Positions 9,326 through 28,951 of a DNA stretch of 64,000 bases are shown here, one piece after another. This DNA is from Chloroflexota bacterium (GTDB lineage: Bacteria > Chloroflexota > Anaerolineae > Anaerolineales > Villigracilaceae). The stretch covers positions 62,001 through 126,000 of the forward strand of contig JACAEM010000033.1 in the NCBI GenBank assembly GCA_013388855.1, read 5' to 3'. The first letter of the stretch is position 1. Each line of letters opens with the position of its first letter. Both the position numbers and the translations under genes were made by a program. The notes beneath the pieces were generated by a model that worked only from the letters and a program-made list of their open reading frames with translations, had not been told where the DNA came from and did not search any database.

Positions 9326-10465
9326 ATGAAAATTCAACCCGTAAAAGTTGCCATCGTCGGTTGCGGTGGAATCAGTGACTCATACCTTTCAACGATGATC
9401 AACAAGTTCAAGATTCTGGATGTGGTCGGCGGTTACGACCGCAACCCTGACAAAATAAAAAATAAGGTTGAGAAATTCGGCATCAAGCCGATGACCTTTG
9501 AAGAGATTCTAGCGGATGATTCCATTGAGATCGTGGTCAACCTGACCGCGCCGACGGGACATTACCCTGTTATCAAGCAATTGCTCGAGGCAGGTAAGCA
9601 TGTCTACACCGAAAAAGTGATGACCGTGGAATTGGAACATGCCGCTGAGTTGGTGAAGATTGCGGACGAAAAGAATCTCTACCTCGGCGCTGCACCTGAC
9701 ACCTTCCTCGGCTCTGCCATTCAGACGGCTCGTTATGTGGTAGATAGCGGCATGATCGGCGACATCACATCCTGCTATTGTGTGTTGACCCGTGACAGCG
9801 AAATCTTCAGCCGTGCCTTTCCTTTCACCGCCAAACCCGGCGGCGGTATCGGCTTCGACGTGGGCATTTACTATATTACCGCCTTACTCAGCATTTTGGG
9901 ACCTGTGAGAGAAGTCTCTGGCGTAGTGCGGACTCACAAACCTGAACGTAAAAAATACGCCCTGGAAAACTTCGGCGAGCCGTACCTGATCGAATGCGAG
10001 AATCTTATGTCCGGCATTCTGCGTTTTGAGCGCGGCACAATTGGTAATCTTTTGTTCGACGCCAATTCCATCTTCACGGCACCGGAAAGACCCGCCGTGG
10101 CATTGATCGGTACGATGGGCATCGTATTCATTCAAGACCCGAACAGTTTTGGCGGTGAGGTCAAGGTCACATTGAAAGGCAACAATGAGCCATTCGTTAT
10201 GCAGCAGAGTCATGCCTTCAGTGATGAATATCGCGGGCTGGGCGTGGCTGAAATGGCATGGTCGATGAGGCTGGGACGAAAGAACCGCGCCAACAAAGAG
10301 ATGGCGTATCACGCATTGGAGATCTTGCACAGAATTGTACAAAGCAGTGAATCAGGCTCCAACCAGGCCCTGCAATCCACCTTCGAGAAAATGCCCCCCA
10401 TCCCACGTGGATTTTCCGGGCAGACCTATTTTGAGTTCATCGAAGAACCGGGGATCGCGCTATAA
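9326..10465 (+). CDS. Gfo/Idh/MocA family NAD(P)-dependent oxidoreductase
   Basis: This 379-residue cytoplasmic dehydrogenase has an N-terminal Rossmann domain starting VAIVGCGGISDSYLS and a conserved EKVMTVELEHAAEL, which fits the family's EKP motif with Val in place of Pro. The C-terminal substrate domain includes GGGIGFDVGIYYITALLSILG, where the D and Y correspond to the usual GG-x-D-x-G-x-H site with Tyr in place of His. Members oxidise or reduce sugars and cyclitols; the substrate here is unknown. The start is the ATG four bases after the propeller gene's stop, with AAGGAG inside that gene's end. Longer upstream reading is a shadow of the propeller gene. A perfect palindromic terminator follows. 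Confidence 0.85.
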   Translation: MKIQPVKVAIVGCGGISDSYLSTMINKFKILDVVGGYDRNPDKIKNKVEKFGIKPMTFEEILADDSIEIVVNLTAPTGHYPVIKQLLEAGKHVYTEKVMTVELEHAAELVKIADEKNLYLGAAPDTFLGSAIQTARYVVDSGMIGDITSCYCVLTRDSEIFSRAFPFTAKPGGGIGFDVGIYYITALLSILGPVREVSGVVRTHKPERKKYALENFGEPYLIECENLMSGILRFERGTIGNLLFDANSIFTAPERPAVALIGTMGIVFIQDPNSFGGEVKVTLKGNNEPFVMQQSHAFSDEYRGLGVAEMAWSMRLGRKNRANKEMAYHALEILHRIVQSSESGSNQALQSTFEKMPPIPRGFSGQTYFEFIEEPGIAL

Positions 10466-10468
10466 CAA

Positions 10469-10504
10469 AACATCCCGCCTGAAATTTCAGGCGGGATGTT
10501 TTGT
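10469..10504. terminator. Bidirectional terminator, perfect palindrome
   Basis: The 16-base arms AACATCCCGCCTGAAA and TTTCAGGCGGGATGTT are perfectly complementary with no spacer, followed by TTGTT. The site lies after the oxidoreductase gene and faces the end of the MerR operon. Confidence 0.75.
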
Positions 10505-10609
10505 TGATCAGCTTTCGTAGTAGGCCGCGGCGAAGAGTGGTGCGTTCTAGTTCTTCTATCTGTTCGATTTTTTTGAGTTTACCACTTGCCCATGCAATCA
10601 GTCCTTACT

Positions 10610-11632
10610 TCATGGCAACAGTAGCGCTTTGATCGCTCGGCGTTCGTCCATCGCGCGATAGCCCTCTGCTGCCTGTTCCAGAGGCAGGGTCAAGTCAAAG
10701 ACCTTGCCGGGATTGATCTTTCGATTCCAGATCAGGTCAATCAGTTCGGGCAGGAAGCGGCGCACCGGGGCGGGACCGCCGTGCAGGTGAACATGCGAGA
10801 AAAAATATTCCCTTCCCGGAATTTCCACATCGTGGAGCACGCCAACGAATCCGACATGACCGCCCGGCCGCGTGGCGCGGATGGACTGCATCATCGCCTC
10901 ATGCGTGCCGACCGCTTCAATGACTGAATGCGCGCCAAGTCCATTGGTGAGATCCTTGATCTTCGCAACGCCTTCGTCGCCGCGTTCAGTCACGATGTCG
11001 GTCGCGCCGAACTCCAGCGCCAGCTTTTGCCGGTCCGCATGCCGGCTCATCACAATGATGCGCTCCGCACCCATGTGTTTTGCAGAGAGAACGCCCAACA
11101 ATCCAACGGCCCCGTCGCCGACAACTGCCACCGTCTTACCAGGTGCAACCGCGGCTGCCACAGCGCCAAACCAACCCGTGCCAAGCACATCGGAGGCGGA
11201 GAGCAGGCTGGGGACCAGATCGTCCGGTGGGAGTTCCGGCGTGGCAACCAGTGTACCGTCTGCCAGCGGGATGCGGGCATACTCCGCCTGTGCGCCAGTG
11301 GGCGCGCCGGGCTGACGGTGTATACAGGATGACTGGTAGCCGGACTGACAGATCTCGCAGGTGTTATCCGACGCGAAGAACGAACCGACCACGAACTGGC
11401 CGGGCTTAATGTTCCTGACTGCACTTCCAACCTCCTCGACGATGCCACAGTATTCGTGTCCCATCGGCACAGGCTGCTTTATCACATCAATGCCGCGATA
11501 GGGCCATAGGTCCGAGCCGCACACACAGGCGGCTGACAGTTTGATAATGGCATCCGTTGGTTCGATGATCTTGGGATCAGGGCGCTCCTCGAAGCGCACA
11601 TCCCGGGGTCCATAAAGCATTGTTCCATGCAT
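10610..11632 (-). CDS. Zinc-dependent alcohol dehydrogenase, MDR family
   Basis: This 340-residue medium-chain dehydrogenase has the catalytic zinc site CVCGSDLWPYRG plus GHEYCGIVEEVG (GHE motif). The structural zinc lobe is reduced: only two or three Cys are seen (CEICQSGYQSSC). The cofactor fold is AVVGDGAVGLLGVLSAKHMGA. It would oxidise an alcohol or reduce an aldehyde with NAD(P). The start is MHGTMLYGPRDVRF with a CTGGAG site; the 19 upstream codons look non-coding. It is the last gene of the MerR-headed operon, and an alcohol dehydrogenase is a classic target of AdhR/NmlR-type MerR regulators, which supports a role in aldehyde detoxification. Confidence 0.82.
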   Translation of the reverse strand: MHGTMLYGPRDVRFEERPDPKIIEPTDAIIKLSAACVCGSDLWPYRGIDVIKQPVPMGHEYCGIVEEVGSAVRNIKPGQFVVGSFFASDNTCEICQSGYQSSCIHRQPGAPTGAQAEYARIPLADGTLVATPELPPDDLVPSLLSASDVLGTGWFGAVAAAVAPGKTVAVVGDGAVGLLGVLSAKHMGAERIIVMSRHADRQKLALEFGATDIVTERGDEGVAKIKDLTNGLGAHSVIEAVGTHEAMMQSIRATRPGGHVGFVGVLHDVEIPGREYFFSHVHLHGGPAPVRRFLPELIDLIWNRKINPGKVFDLTLPLEQAAEGYRAMDERRAIKALLLP

Positions 11633-19068: not shown

Positions 19069-21087
19069 ATGGAATCGAACACCAACAATCAATCATCTCT
19101 CGTTCCAAAGATCGTGGGAGGGATCGTTGCCGTTCTCGTGTGCTGTGCCTGTTTGTTGATCCTTGCCGCAGGTTGGTTCGCGTATCAGGCATATCAAAAC
19201 AGCCCGATTGAGCTTCCCACCCAGATCTTCCCGACAATTGAGAACCCGGAAGATCCCTTCACACCTGCGCCTGTCCCGACGCTCGACCGCACCGACGAGG
19301 TCACATCGGAGACCATGGACATCCTGAACCAGACATTGATCCCGGAAAACGATCCGTACGAACTGGCATGCAGACTTGAGAAGATATGCAATGTCTCGAA
19401 GGAAGTTCCCGGGAAACAATACAAAGTCGGCGACAAGGAGAAGTTCTGGATTCTCAATGGCGACACAATTCAGCACAACCAGATCACAGCCACCCTGCTC
19501 TACATCACGCCGCACACCTATTTTTGGGCGCAGGAGGGCGTGAATGTCAACCAGAACGATGTGAAACGATTGATGGACACGTTCGAGACCAAGATCTATC
19601 CCACCGACCGCGAATTCTTCGGCAGCGAATGGACTCCTGGCATCGACGGCGATGAGCACATCTTCGTGGTCTACGCCGACGGATTGGGCGCCAGCACTGC
19701 CGGCTACTTCAACTCCACAGACTCATTCAATCCGGTCATCAAGGAATATTCCAACGCTCACGAGACCTTCATGGTCAGTATCACCCAGGACCTCGGTGAC
19801 GAATACACCTATGCCACGCTGGCCCATGAATTTGTTCATATGATCCAGTTTCCCTCAGATCGCAACGACCAATCGTGGATCAGTGAGGGCTTTGCCGAAG
19901 TCGGCGCTTTCCTGAACGGATACGGCGTCGGTGGTTGGGATTGGGCGTACGCGAGCGAACCCGACCTGCAACTCACCGACTGGAACGCCGAACCGGGCAC
20001 GAACGGTCCGCACTATGGGCAGTCGTTTCTCTATCTGACCTATTTCCTGGATCGCTTCGGCGAAGAGGCAACCAAGGCGCTGAACACCAATCCTGAGAAC
20101 GGCTTGAGTAGCGTGGACGACACCCTCGCAGACCTGAATATCACCGATCCGCAGACCGGGCAGATCATCACCGCTGACGATGTCTTCATGGATTGGGCAG
20201 CCGCCATGTACCTGAAGGATGAAACCATCGGCGACGGTCGGTTCACCTACCACAACTACCCCGAAGGACCGCAAACTTCGGATACTGAGAGGATCAGCAA
20301 CTGTCCAAGTTCTGTGCTCGACCGGACGGTCAATCAATACGGCATCGATTACATCAACATCAACTGCTCCGGCGATCACACCATCCATTTCAGCGGCTCC
20401 ACGGTCTCAGGTTTGCTCCCGGCGGAGGCGTATTCCGGCGAGTATGTCTTCTGGTCAAACAAGAACGACGAATCAGACATGACGCTGACACGCGAATTCG
20501 ATTTCACCGGCGTCAGCGGACCGATCACGATCAGCTACCGGACCTGGTACAACATCGAAGAGGAATGGGACTATCTCTATCTCGAAGCCTCCACCGATGG
20601 ACAAAACTGGGAAATCCTCAAGACGCCCTCCGGCACCGATTCGAATCCCTCCGGCAACGCCTACGGCTGGGGCTACACCGGCTCCTCGAACGGGTGGATC
20701 CTCGAAGAGGTCGATCTCTCCAAATTCGCCGGGCAAAAGGTGCAATTGCGCTTCGAATATGTCACCGATGCAGCCGTCACCGAGGAAGGCTTGATGCTTG
20801 ATGACATTTCCATCGACGCGATCAACTACCAGTCCGATCTCGAAGCGGATAACGGAGGCTGGGAAGGCGCCGGGTTCGCCCGTCTCAAGAACGTTCTCCC
20901 CCAGACCTACCGCCTGACTCTCATTATAAAGGGCGACATCACCACTGTGACTCACATCCCGGTCAACCCCGACCAGACCGCAGAAATCCCGATTTCGCTC
21001 AACTCCGGAGAAGAGGCGATCCTGATCGTCTCCGGTATGACGCGCTTCACCACCATCCCCGCGCCGTATCAAGTGGAAATAAAATAA
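19069..21087 (+). CDS. Membrane-anchored HExxH metallopeptidase, immune inhibitor A/M6-like
   Basis: This 672-residue protein has an N-terminal anchor (about residues 13-36, with a VCCACLL core) and a Pro/Thr-rich linker, so the rest lies outside the membrane. The zinc site HEFVHMIQ is at 253-260, and WISEGFAE gives the third ligand Glu at about 273. The later half (about 440-580) holds a beta-sandwich module with FDFTGVSGPITISYRTWYNIE and LRFEYVTDAAVTEEGLMLDDI, which is the MAM-like module seen after the catalytic domain in immune inhibitor A-type M6 peptidases. It probably degrades external protein. An AAAAGGAG site precedes the start. A palindromic repeat begins right after the stop. Confidence 0.82.
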   Translation: MESNTNNQSSLVPKIVGGIVAVLVCCACLLILAAGWFAYQAYQNSPIELPTQIFPTIENPEDPFTPAPVPTLDRTDEVTSETMDILNQTLIPENDPYELACRLEKICNVSKEVPGKQYKVGDKEKFWILNGDTIQHNQITATLLYITPHTYFWAQEGVNVNQNDVKRLMDTFETKIYPTDREFFGSEWTPGIDGDEHIFVVYADGLGASTAGYFNSTDSFNPVIKEYSNAHETFMVSITQDLGDEYTYATLAHEFVHMIQFPSDRNDQSWISEGFAEVGAFLNGYGVGGWDWAYASEPDLQLTDWNAEPGTNGPHYGQSFLYLTYFLDRFGEEATKALNTNPENGLSSVDDTLADLNITDPQTGQIITADDVFMDWAAAMYLKDETIGDGRFTYHNYPEGPQTSDTERISNCPSSVLDRTVNQYGIDYININCSGDHTIHFSGSTVSGLLPAEAYSGEYVFWSNKNDESDMTLTREFDFTGVSGPITISYRTWYNIEEEWDYLYLEASTDGQNWEILKTPSGTDSNPSGNAYGWGYTGSSNGWILEEVDLSKFAGQKVQLRFEYVTDAAVTEEGLMLDDISIDAINYQSDLEADNGGWEGAGFARLKNVLPQTYRLTLIIKGDITTVTHIPVNPDQTAEIPISLNSGEEAILIVSGMTRFTTIPAPYQVEIK

Positions 21088-23693: not shown

Positions 23694-23790
23694 CCGGCTG
23701 AGTCCGAAGCGGGTTTTTGTCATTCTTTTGTTGTACGATACCGGGCAATCAAGGATATAATCCTTTTCGCCGAATAGGAGAATCCACAGA

Positions 23791-26700
23791 ATGCCGTCTG
23801 GAACGAGATCAACATCGGAACGAAAAACGATTGGCGTTTTTTCATCGCAGGTGGGGCGTGCCTGGGGAACGGAGTTCCTCGCAGGGATCACCAACGCCGC
23901 CGAGGAAAACGACGTCAATCTTGTGCATTTTATCGGGGGAAAGATCACGCCGCTGGTAACCGCAGGGCAGGCAAAAGTCTCTTTCGGATTGTACGACCTG
24001 GCAAAACCCGATCAGTTTGATGGGTTGATTCTTGCCAGTGATGTCGCCTACGGTGCGACGGATGAGGAACTGAAGCTGTTCCGCAAAACGTTTGGGGACA
24101 TGCCCATCGTGACGCAGTCTGTGCCGCTGGGCGGCGCGTCGATGTTCATCCCCAACAATGTGGAGGGGATGCGCGCGGTGGTGCGTCATTTGATCGAGGA
24201 GCACGGTTATAAGCGCATTGCCTTCATCTGCGGCATCGATGGGCAGATCGATGCTGAACAACGCTTTCAAGCTTACAAGGACGAGTTGAAGGCGCACGAT
24301 CTGCGCTTTATTGATGATCTGGTCGTTCGTGGGGATTACACTTCCGAAGGCGGGAGGGCGGCGATCTTCACCCTGTTGGACGAACGTAAGGTCCGTTTCC
24401 AGGCTGTCGTCGCGGCGAATGACCGCATGGCGTTCGGCGCGTTGGAGGCGCTTCAGCAGCGCGGCATTCGCGTGCCGGATGATGTGGCTGTCACCGGTTT
24501 CGATGATTTGCGCGAGGCGCAGGCGACCGGCGTGCCGCTGACCACCGTCCGCCAGTCGTTTTACACGGCGGGAAAGCACGCGCTGGAGGCGTTGCTCAAA
24601 CGGATCGACGGGGAAACCGTCCCAAGCATGACGCTGACTCCCACCCAGTTGTTGATCCGCTGGTCGTGTGGGTGTCTACCGGAAAATGTGCGGCAGGCGG
24701 CGGTCTCCCCGCGCGATGTGGCAAAGACGGGCAGGCTGGAGAATAAACGCGAAGCCGCCTTGCGCGCTCTGCTCAATTCTGCGGGGGTGACTGAACAGGA
24801 CCCGGCGCTGGCGCAATTTAAGGATGCGTTCGGGCGCGCCTGGGATGGTTTTTTGTTGTCTCTGAACAAGAAATCCTCGAACGAAGATTTTCTGAAAACG
24901 ATCAACGCGTTAATCGAGTTGATGCAAAAGAACAATATCACCCCCTCGGTGTGGCACAACGTGATCTCGATGATGCGCCGGTATGCATTAAGTGGTATCA
25001 CCAGCCATACCACAATGCTGGAAGCGGAAAATCTGTTTCAGCAAGCGCGCCTTCTGGCAGGCGAACTCTCGCAGCGTTCGCAGGCATACCGCAGGCTGGT
25101 GCTTGAACAACAGGAAAATGTCCTGCAGGGATTCAGTTTTTCGATGGCACCAGCAATGACCCTCGATGAAATCGGCGAAGCCATTTCGGACCACTTCCCA
25201 TCCATGGGCATCGAACGCTGGTATGTGATGTTCTACAGCGATGTCAGCGAACCGCAGTCCATTTCCTCGCCGCCGCCTGAAAGTTACAAGCTGCTGTTCC
25301 AGTACGAAGGTTCGAAGTTCGAAATCCCCCGCAAACAGACACCCATTGGGACGGGTCAACTGGTACCGCGTGGAAAGACCCCAAAAGATCATCGATATAC
25401 CGCCGTGATCATGCCCCTTTCCCTGGCGAGGAACCGTTTTGGTTTTATGTGGGTGGAGATGGGCCCGCGCGACTGGGAAGTGTATGTCCGCATCCGCAAT
25501 CTGGTCAGCAGTGCGCTGCTCCGCACCATGCTCGTTTCGCAGAGGGAACAGGCGCAGAAGGAGATCGAACGCCTGCTCGCCGAGGCGCGCGAACGCGCCG
25601 CGGAACTCGCCATTGCCAAGGAATTTGCGGAACGGACCGCCTCGGAAAACGCCAGCCTGTATTCCAGCGAACAGGCGCGTCGTCACGCGGCGGAGGCGCT
25701 GGCGAATTCATCCCGTCAGCTCTCCTCGCTGGGAACCGTGGAGGAGGTGCCGCAACAGGTCGTGGAGCAATTAATCCAGGTGATCGCCACTGACCGCTGC
25801 GCCCTGTTCCTGGAGGATGTGAACGGCATTCCACGGCTTCTTGCACATCACGGTTTTCCCGACGATGCCCCTGTGAAAGAATTGGTCTACAGCATCAAGG
25901 GCACCAATGTCTATCACGGCATTGCAAAACAATCGGAACCGGCGGTGATTGGCGACATCAGGAAGATGCAGAGTTGGGAACAACCCTCATGGCATCCCGA
26001 GGATCTTTCCTGGCTGGGTGTGCCCCTGTATTCCAAACACAAGGTGACTGGCATGCTCACCCTCTGCCGAAGCAAACCATCGGCGTTCAACCAGGATGAT
26101 GTCCTGCTTGCCAAGACATTCGCCACCCAGGCGTCCATTGCGCTGGAGAACGCCCGCCTCTACGACGACCTGAACCGTTTCAACCAGATGATGGAACGCA
26201 TGGTTGAACAGCGTGTGAACGAGTTGAGCGTCGCGCACAACACCTTGAAAAAACTGGATAAGAACAAAAGCGACTTCATCCAGGTTGCGGCGCACGAACT
26301 GCGCACGCCGCTCACCGTCATCAAGGGGTACATGGGCATGATCAAAGCCGCGCCCGCCGTTCAGGAAAACCCCACGCTCATGCAGGCGATGGACGGGGTG
26401 ATCCAGGGTACCAACCGCCTGCACCAGATTGTCAACAGCATGCTGGATGTGGCGCGTCTCGAAAACCAGGTGCTGACCCCGCACCTCGAAACAATCACCC
26501 TTGGACCGCTCCTGCGCCTCATCCAAAAAGAGTATGTGGATGACCTGAAGGAGCGTCAAATCACGCTGGAGATCGATCCCAATATTAATTCGGCGCCCCC
26601 TATCCTGGCGGATTCCGAACTGCTAAAGAAGGCGCTCGATAACGTCATCGTCAACGCCATCAAGTTCACGCCCGACGGCGGCTCGATCTTCGTCAGCGCC

Positions 26701-27000
26701 CAGCCCGTCCAGGTGAATGGACGCGGCAGCTTTTGCGAGATCCGCGTCCGCGATACAGGCATCGGCATCGCGCCCGAGAACCACGTCATCATCTTCGAGA
26801 AGTTGTACCAGATCGGTAAAGTGGAACTGCACTCCTCGGGGCGCACCAAATTCAAGGGCGGGGGGCCGGGTCTGGGCCTTGCCATCGCGGCGGGCATCGT
26901 CAAGGCGCACAAGGGCAAAATCTGGGTCGAGAGTCCCGGCTATGACGAGGAAAAACTGCCAGGCAGTACCTTCTTTATCCAAATCCCCCTGGCACAGTAG
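23791..27000 (+). CDS. Hybrid sensor histidine kinase with LacI-type ligand-binding domain and GAF
   Basis: This 1069-residue protein begins with a LacI-type periplasmic-binding fold (about 12-290; TIGVFSSQVGRAWGTEFLAGI, VAANDRMAFGALEALQQRGIRVPDDVAVTGFDD) but has no helix-turn-helix before it, and no signal peptide or transmembrane helix. A helical region (about 320-440) and a GAF-like region (about 440-580) follow, then a coiled coil (about 585-640) and a clear GAF domain (about 650-790). The kinase part has an H-box AAHELRTPLTVIKG (His near 835), N-box NVIVNAIKFTPDGG, G1 DTGIGIAP and G2 GPGLGLAIA. It would sense a sugar-like cytoplasmic ligand and phosphorylate an unknown response regulator; none is encoded nearby. 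Confidence 0.85.
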   Translation: MPSGTRSTSERKTIGVFSSQVGRAWGTEFLAGITNAAEENDVNLVHFIGGKITPLVTAGQAKVSFGLYDLAKPDQFDGLILASDVAYGATDEELKLFRKTFGDMPIVTQSVPLGGASMFIPNNVEGMRAVVRHLIEEHGYKRIAFICGIDGQIDAEQRFQAYKDELKAHDLRFIDDLVVRGDYTSEGGRAAIFTLLDERKVRFQAVVAANDRMAFGALEALQQRGIRVPDDVAVTGFDDLREAQATGVPLTTVRQSFYTAGKHALEALLKRIDGETVPSMTLTPTQLLIRWSCGCLPENVRQAAVSPRDVAKTGRLENKREAALRALLNSAGVTEQDPALAQFKDAFGRAWDGFLLSLNKKSSNEDFLKTINALIELMQKNNITPSVWHNVISMMRRYALSGITSHTTMLEAENLFQQARLLAGELSQRSQAYRRLVLEQQENVLQGFSFSMAPAMTLDEIGEAISDHFPSMGIERWYVMFYSDVSEPQSISSPPPESYKLLFQYEGSKFEIPRKQTPIGTGQLVPRGKTPKDHRYTAVIMPLSLARNRFGFMWVEMGPRDWEVYVRIRNLVSSALLRTMLVSQREQAQKEIERLLAEARERAAELAIAKEFAERTASENASLYSSEQARRHAAEALANSSRQLSSLGTVEEVPQQVVEQLIQVIATDRCALFLEDVNGIPRLLAHHGFPDDAPVKELVYSIKGTNVYHGIAKQSEPAVIGDIRKMQSWEQPSWHPEDLSWLGVPLYSKHKVTGMLTLCRSKPSAFNQDDVLLAKTFATQASIALENARLYDDLNRFNQMMERMVEQRVNELSVAHNTLKKLDKNKSDFIQVAAHELRTPLTVIKGYMGMIKAAPAVQENPTLMQAMDGVIQGTNRLHQIVNSMLDVARLENQVLTPHLETITLGPLLRLIQKEYVDDLKERQITLEIDPNINSAPPILADSELLKKALDNVIVNAIKFTPDGGSIFVSAQPVQVNGRGSFCEIRVRDTGIGIAPENHVIIFEKLYQIGKVELHSSGRTKFKGGGPGLGLAIAAGIVKAHKGKIWVESPGYDEEKLPGSTFFIQIPLAQ

Positions 27001-27964: not shown

Positions 27965-28951
27965 TTATTGAGGCGGGAGGAGAACCGCATCGATCACGTG
28001 GATCACACCATTCGAAGCTTCGATATCCGTGATGACCACCTGGACGTTGTCGTTCAGGAAGACATTGCCATCCTGGACCTTGATACTAGCATCCTTGCCG
28101 AGCACGGTGGGTGCGCTAGTGAGGCCGACCACATCCGCCGCCATGACCTTGCCAGAGACTACATGGTATAGCAAGATGTCGGTGAGAGCCTGCTTGCTCT
28201 CCGGTTTGAGCAGTTCATCGATGGTACCGGCAGGCAGTTTGGCAAAGGCATCGTCGGTGGGGGCGAAGACCGTGAAGGGACCTTCACCGCTCAAGGTGCC
28301 CACCAGGTCGGCAGCGGTCAACGCGGCGACCAGCGTGGTGAAGCGGCCATCGGCGACGGCGATGTCAACGATCGTGCCGGGAGCGGCGGCTTCCTCAACC
28401 GGGGGCAGGATGACCGTATCGATCACGTGGATCACACCATTGGATGTCTCGATATCGGTAATGATGACCTGGGCATCGTTGATATACACGTTGCCCATAT
28501 CGACCTTGACCGCCACATCCTTGCCGAGCACGGTGGTGGCGCTGGTCAGACCAGCCACATCCGCCGCCATGACCTTGCCGGAGACCACATGGTAGAGCAG
28601 GATGTCAGTAAGAGCCTGTTTGTTCTCGGGCTTGAGCAGATCTTCCACAGTGCCAGCAGGCAACTTGGCAAAAGCATCATCAGTGGGAGCGAAGACCGTG
28701 AAGGGACCTTCGCTTTTCAGCGTGTCGACCAACTCGGCGGCTGTCACAGCGGCGACGAGCGTTGTGAAGCGGCCGTCCGCAACCGCGGTGTCGACAATAT
28801 CCGAGAGCATGGGCTCAGGGGTGGCGGTGGGCTCGGGCATGGCGGTCGGTTCCGGCATGGCGGTCGGAGCGGGGGTTTCGGCAGGTGCACAGGCAGCGAT
28901 CACAAATGCCAGGACCATAAGGACTGATATAGCGAGTTTTGTGCGTTTCAT
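27965..28951 (-). CDS. Lipoprotein with two tandem FAS1 (fasciclin) domains
   Basis: This 328-residue secreted lipoprotein has a signal peptide ending in the lipobox VIAAC, with the lipid Cys at 21. A linker of repeated (P)T-x-M/T-PEP units (about 27-48) leads to two FAS1 domains (about 50-185 and 192-327). Each has the H1 motif [18 protein letters not shown] and the H2 motif [14 protein letters not shown]. The two domains are nearly identical over long stretches, which shows recent internal duplication. FAS1 domains mediate adhesion or matrix contact. The gene is single, with its own TTGACA-16-TAAAAT promoter and an AAGGAG site. Confidence 0.92.

Follow-up and report, generated by a model that had tools for sequence, protein, structure and literature searches.

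The window, a 64,000-nucleotide stretch of the genome of a Chloroflexota bacterium, contains a gene for a predicted sensor histidine kinase in which a LacI/GalR-type ligand-binding domain is joined to GAF, HisKA and HATPase_c domains (Table 1). Peripla_BP_1 (residues 15-288), Peripla_BP_3 (131-293, E = 2.5e-31), GAF (651-785), HisKA (826-892) and HATPase_c (941-1068) all scored above the curated Pfam cut-offs. Residues 296-648 had no Pfam match above the curated cut-off. These matches and the conserved kinase motifs described below bear out the original prediction of a LacI-type domain joined to GAF-like regions and an intact HisKA/HATPase pair. All 16 aligned homologues have the same Pfam domains. 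Its "GAF-like regions" stand in part: one is a clear GAF domain, and the other, at residues 458-556, is divergent and seen only in models. The full-length model itself is only moderate (pLDDT 77, pTM 0.49).

Table 1. Features of the kinase gene, in positions of the window
Feature	Position	Strand	Basis
Whole gene, LacI-type sensor histidine kinase, 1069 aa	23791..27000	+	Open reading frame at these coordinates
AGGAG, probable ribosome-binding site, 10 nt 5' of ATG	23776..23780	+	Read directly
LacI/GalR-type ligand-binding domain, residues 12-295	23824..24675	+	Pfam, structural matches, pocket residues
R-x-S-C-G-C motif, residues 290-295, end of LacI core	24658..24675	+	Alignment
Helical domain and long helix, residues 312-452	24724..25146	+	Model, structural matches (suggestive)
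Divergent GAF-like domain, residues 458-556	25162..25458	+	Models; no Pfam match
Long helices, coiled-coil-like linker, residues 562-645	25474..25725	+	Full-length model
GAF domain, residues 651-785	25741..26145	+	Pfam, above cut-off
HisKA domain, residues 826-892	26266..26466	+	Pfam
Codon of predicted phosphorylated H835 in HELRTPLT	26293..26295	+	Motif, alignment
HATPase_c, residues 941-1068	26611..26994	+	Pfam, conserved boxes

The ATG follows an AGGAG that is probably its ribosome-binding site. The LacI helix-turn-helix was not among the Pfam families that matched the protein at E ≤ 0.1, and we considered whether a mis-called start could hide one. The LacI helix-turn-helix and hinge together span about 60 residues. 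In the window, the frame is open for only 10 codons 5' of the ATG, and in all 77 related loci that are uncut at the left, at most 54 open residues precede the LacI core, too few for a helix-turn-helix and hinge. We therefore rejected the idea that the gene encodes a LacI repressor whose start codon was misassigned, and the claim that the protein lacks a helix-turn-helix holds.

To follow the kinase across genomes, we scanned genome contigs; the scan gave 140 relatives, and only the top 80 were retained, so that divergent forms are under-sampled. By their titles, the relatives are mostly Anaerolineae, Anaerolineales or Chloroflexi, with a few MAGs filed under other taxa (for example, one Chthonomonas). 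H835 and E836 are kept in 76 of the 80 loci, and N955, D988, G990, G992, F1002, G1025, G1027 and G1029 in 75; the other four and five, respectively, are gaps. Gaps at these residues and at the pocket residues below stem from cut or broken frames, as three loci are cut at the left, three are cut at the right and two have a broken frame. The N, D/G1, F and G2 boxes of HATPase_c are all present in the window kinase. Thus, the catalytic histidine and ATP-binding residues, which the original prediction had singled out for closer alignment, are in place. The protein has the phosphoacceptor histidine and the four boxes of a predicted HisKA-type sensor histidine kinase. We rejected a decayed kinase because the boxes are conserved, yet the frame is broken in two of the 80 loci (L131 and L170, at 624 and 630 residues), where assembly error and decay are both possible.

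Full-length homologues, with identities of 53-100%, occur in 22 of 61 genomes searched (its own included), and 16 of the 18 genomes of its own genus have the full-length kinase. Two genomes carry the kinase in pieces at contig ends (G003 and G018), one has a longer homologue of 41% identity (G049) and one has a fragment at a contig end whose assignment is ambiguous (G042). The kinase was not found in G009, which is 96% complete.

We examined the likely location of the protein using Kyte-Doolittle hydropathy. The highest 19-residue mean in the whole protein is 1.04, and the highest 15-residue mean near the N terminus is 0.31; six of the 80 homologues exceed 1.6 somewhere, with a maximum of 1.74. 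By this crude test, the low means indicate neither a membrane helix nor a signal peptide, in agreement with the original prediction. A membrane helix is unlikely, and we rejected an exported or membrane-bound sensor. As judged from these comparisons, the gene encodes a real, conserved and apparently soluble LacI-type sensor kinase. Its kinase class is ordinary; the interest lies in the sensor and in its reuse before many outputs.

Four polar pocket residues of the LacI-type domain, R158, N210, D238 and Q255, are unchanged in 78 of the 80 loci (two gaps), unlike many other positions in the domain. From the alignment with LacI-type structures, we take them to be the counterparts of R197, N246, D274 and Q291 of E. 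coli LacI. In structural comparisons, the LacI part matched a fucose-bound LacI ancestor (9nt4; target-normalised TM 0.83-0.86), RbsR with ribose (9ny7; 0.71-0.83) and CelR with cellobiose (0.71). LacI ancestors, several with D-fucose, came first among the top 50 matches, followed by RbsR-ribose and CelR-cellobiose, with PurR-hypoxanthine and CcpA lower. As the top structural matches are of sugar type and five loci carrying a related sensor module (described below) have sugar-type ABC genes, a sugar is mildly favoured over a purine as the putative ligand. We infer a carbohydrate-type ligand by family, since the sugar-gene context comes from distant module loci and not from the ten scanned neighbours of the window gene. 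It is reasonable to suppose that a small-molecule ligand of the LacI domain would control phosphorylation.

The ten neighbouring genes that we scanned encode ClpC, an InhA-like protein, a cupin, an MFS transporter, GNAT, fasciclin and 2-oxoacid dehydrogenase proteins, and none belongs to a sugar ABC system or encodes a glycosidase. The top match of the MFS transporter was MFS_1, with weaker matches to MFS/sugar-transport and Sugar_tr. Of the 59 loci that have at least 4.5 kb upstream of the kinase, 38 carry ClpC there and 44 carry the InhA-like protein. The InhA-like protein of the window (19069-21087) has a MAM domain and a hydrophobic N terminus. Downstream of the kinase, on the reverse strand, lies a fasciclin-domain protein (two stretches; 27965-28951).

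The middle region that follows the LacI domain (residues 296-600) is a feature that the original prediction overlooked. We modelled residues 287-605 from 50 sequences (pLDDT 83, pTM 0.60). In the model, four shorter helices precede a long one and a further helix; an alpha-beta domain comes next, and a second long helix closes the region. Among the Foldseek matches listed for this model, most were to GAF or phytochrome-type domains, with a best E of 3.1e-3 and none ≤ 0.001. Using VIA-align, model residues 26-144 (312-430 of the protein) superposed on globin-like folds, including photocobilin (8j2x, Z 11.9), a stressosome domain of RsbR type (3zta, Z 11.6 over 130 residues), pXO1-118 (3pmd, Z 11.4 over 115 residues) and many phycobiliproteins, which we take to form one fold class. 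The six top rows had Z of 11.4-11.9 over 108-130 residues, and Z below about 13 can arise by chance for helical domains. The models are only suggestive of a globin-like domain at residues 312-452.

Sequence searches gave no support for the globin-like fold. RsbRD_N or a related Pfam family matched none of 19 module members at E ≤ 10, a threshold at which 13 other families matched one member each, and RsbRD_N (PF14361) was found in none of 21 genomes, its own included. When a sequence profile of the helical region was searched against PDB chains, the best E was only 0.1. The middle region of the window protein matched no NCBIfam family and had no match on plasmids. Between residues 300 and 459, no histidine is invariant among 55 sequences (the His-richest column, 389, is histidine in 55 of 81 rows), making a conserved haem ligand unlikely.

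These domains offer other candidate inputs. The LacI domain could be a dimerisation scaffold that has lost ligand sensing, with either the GAF domains or the helical one providing the real input. This arrangement is consistent with the two GAF-type domains and the sensor-globin-like helical domain of the model, and with the ten scanned neighbours, which include neither a sugar ABC gene nor a glycosidase gene. We consider it rather doubtful, as the four polar pocket positions are invariant apart from the two gaps, while many others vary.

We next looked for the partner of the kinase. None of the 83 PF00072 matches of the genome falls inside the window, so that the earlier statement that no response regulator lies nearby is true of this stretch; the closest one on this contig lies about 44 kb upstream, next to another kinase match. 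A profile built from 12 receivers of the same genome, which re-finds all 12, gave 27 matches over the window and the 80 related loci, none of them in the window. One is a LuxR-type regulator upstream of the kinase in L152. The other 26 are DivK-like single-domain receivers that lie 2.3-3.6 kb downstream of the kinase and convergent to it, and they come from the 61 loci (of 80 overall) that have at least 3.9 kb downstream. By neighbour names read from sequence, a gene for UDP-glucose dehydrogenase (UGD) accompanies the receiver in all 26 loci (out of the 80, L097-L176). In the genome of the window, the orthologue of this receiver stands out clearly as the best match (C44:211215-211583, 66%) and adjoins UGD and a methyltransferase, on a different contig from the kinase; its pair with UGD lies at L197:7686-9458 (C44). 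This conserved receiver-UGD pair might tie a receiver to envelope polysaccharide.

One explanation is that the kinase signals to this DivK-like receiver and, through the receiver-UGD-methyltransferase block, controls envelope polysaccharide genes. The proximity in 26 loci and the clear orthologue argue for this, but the receiver is always paired with UGD, even off the kinase contig, so that the adjacency may be chance synteny. In addition, the 61 genomes divide into 18 with both kinase and receiver, seven with the kinase only, six with the receiver only and 30 with neither, counting the kinase as present in 25 genomes, G003, G018 and G049 among them. The kinase-only genomes include G010 and G015, which are 92-95% complete. 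Thus, the pair is not obligate, the receiver as exclusive partner is unsupported and we regard this explanation as improbable.

Some orphan kinases serve several receivers or act as the regulator or phosphatase of another kinase. The window kinase might likewise feed several receivers, or solely regulate or dephosphorylate another kinase. It is an orphan in the window, and the three own-genome kinases most similar in the catalytic part (C36:1349-2155, C15:210845-211813 and C32:111369-112154) also lack any PF00072 match for about 5 kb around them, a search limited for the C36 kinase by a contig end only 1.3 kb away. As nothing positive points to such a role, we find it somewhat unlikely. A receiver encoded elsewhere is a plausible partner.

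We favour, with moderate confidence, a cytosolic carbohydrate-type sensor kinase of an orphan two-component pathway, in which the LacI domain would control phosphorylation of the predicted H835. The domain order, the motifs, the lack of a helix-turn-helix and of an obvious membrane segment, and the family-wide conservation come from sequence; the class of ligand, the mechanism of the dimer, the direction in which control runs and the partner are our proposals. A small carbohydrate-like ligand, made in the cell or imported, would bind the LacI-type domain, and closure of the domain would rearrange the dimer. The signal could then travel from the helical domain to HisKA by way of the divergent GAF-like domain, the coiled coil and the second GAF domain, and alter H835 autophosphorylation or phosphatase activity. 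The HELRT motif has a role in phosphatase activity. The receiver that takes the phosphate from the kinase would be encoded elsewhere.

In the textbook view, LacI-type domains act as switches that control DNA binding. The window kinase shares the ligand-domain fold and pocket residues of the LacI/GalR repressors LacI, RbsR and CelR, but it has no helix-turn-helix and its output is a histidine kinase. E. coli XylR is a one-component regulator with a LacI-type ligand domain and an AraC-type DNA-binding output. Like XylR, the window kinase represents a LacI-type domain moved from its own helix-turn-helix to another output; unlike XylR, it has GAF, HisKA and HATPase_c domains after the LacI-type domain. 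Its modelled helical fold followed by a long helix resembles the RsbR-type non-haem globin sensors (3zta) and pXO1-118 (3pmd), although it has no sequence match to them, its outputs differ and the Z scores may reflect chance. In a review, PBP or LacI-type domains are described as sensors in GGDEF/EAL/HD-GYP proteins, the LacI-type domain is grouped under putative sensory domains of unknown purpose, and PBP-clan sensor domains are described as periplasmic, acting via a membrane linker (PMC8846402). The window protein is like these in using a LacI-type domain as the sensor of a signalling enzyme, but it differs from the sensors described there in appearing soluble and in being a kinase. Among the papers listed in searches of the CC-licensed PMC literature, none concerned a histidine kinase with a LacI-type domain, and no protein name of the LacI-GGDEF type was found. 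A conserved soluble LacI-type kinase would show that intracellular sugars can be read straight into phosphorylation.

As judged from sequence comparisons, the sensor is a module common to several outputs, which the original prediction overlooked. The middle region is present in 27 of 301 genomes surveyed in the phylum, which the titles indicate to be Chloroflexota (300 drawn plus its own), and its identity is 14-27% for eight divergent members. We found the LacI domain and middle module before HD-GYP (L034 and L062), HK (L056 and L060), HK-REC-AraC (L053, L054 and L092), HK-REC (L078, L080, L081, L082, L085 and L093, some cut by the locus end) and GGDEF (L094). L079 has HisKA without HATPase in the same frame, and L058 is cut by a contig end inside a GAF domain. 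Outside the phylum, a Deinococcus peraridilitoris plasmid protein (WP_015231178.1, L208:5713-8754), annotated as EAL and with its GGDEF part read from sequence, carries the module before GGDEF-EAL. Plasmid searches with two divergent modules gave 2363 and 576 records, and in no case did the match span 80% of the query; among the matches listed, only record H1 extended well into the middle region (71%).

We read 12 module loci and gave Pfam ten ORFs from five of them, picked by eye as transport- or GH16-looking. Sugar-type ABC genes were matched at all five: a substrate-binding protein, two permeases and two GH16 in L206; a substrate-binding protein and GH16 in L201; a substrate-binding protein in L207, where GH16-similar ORFs were judged by eye; a nearby permease in L053; and a permease about 4.5 kb away in L202. 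L054, L198, L199, L200, L203, L204 and L205 were outside this test.

The end of the LacI core is also shared. The R, S, C, G and C of R-x-S-C-G-C are each kept in 78 of the 80 kinase loci (two gaps), and of the 21 loci of the phylum that were checked, 20, all but L096, have R-x-S-C-x-C. We rejected the idea that the motif is unique to fused proteins, as the Deinococcus fusion keeps only the first cysteine and one of the six separate LacI-type proteins of the window's own genome ends in it. The latter, a separate LacI-type regulator (L211, C44:286000-287800), ends R-R-S-C-G-C-S-Y. In a tree of LacI domains, 20 fused domains lie on one side of a branch and the six separate own-genome proteins on the other (support 91/92; in 92% of bootstrap trees), a mild test because the fused rows were picked by homology to the module and one separate row is long-branched.

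The kinase would then be one use of a plug-in module, composed of the LacI domain, R-x-S-C-x-C, the helical domain and the GAF-like domain, that precedes several outputs in Chloroflexota and in the one Deinococcus plasmid protein. Tentatively, and with more doubt than belief, we suggest that Chloroflexota and at least one Deinococcus relative possess a portable cytosolic carbohydrate receptor (LacI domain, C-G-C joint, non-haem globin-like transducer and divergent GAF-like domain) that is swapped among histidine kinases, hybrid kinase-AraC regulators, diguanylate cyclases, GGDEF-EAL and HD-GYP proteins, with the globin-like part serving as a haem-free mechanical coupler. If so, intracellular sugar pools would drive phosphorelay and c-di-GMP signalling alike. 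The shared module also offers a natural set for testing the coupling of one sensor to many outputs. In one module locus (L204:6206-10913), the frame of the LacI-module kinase stops after HisKA, and an ORF at 9795-10913 looks by eye like the ATPase part of the kinase, with other ORFs in between.
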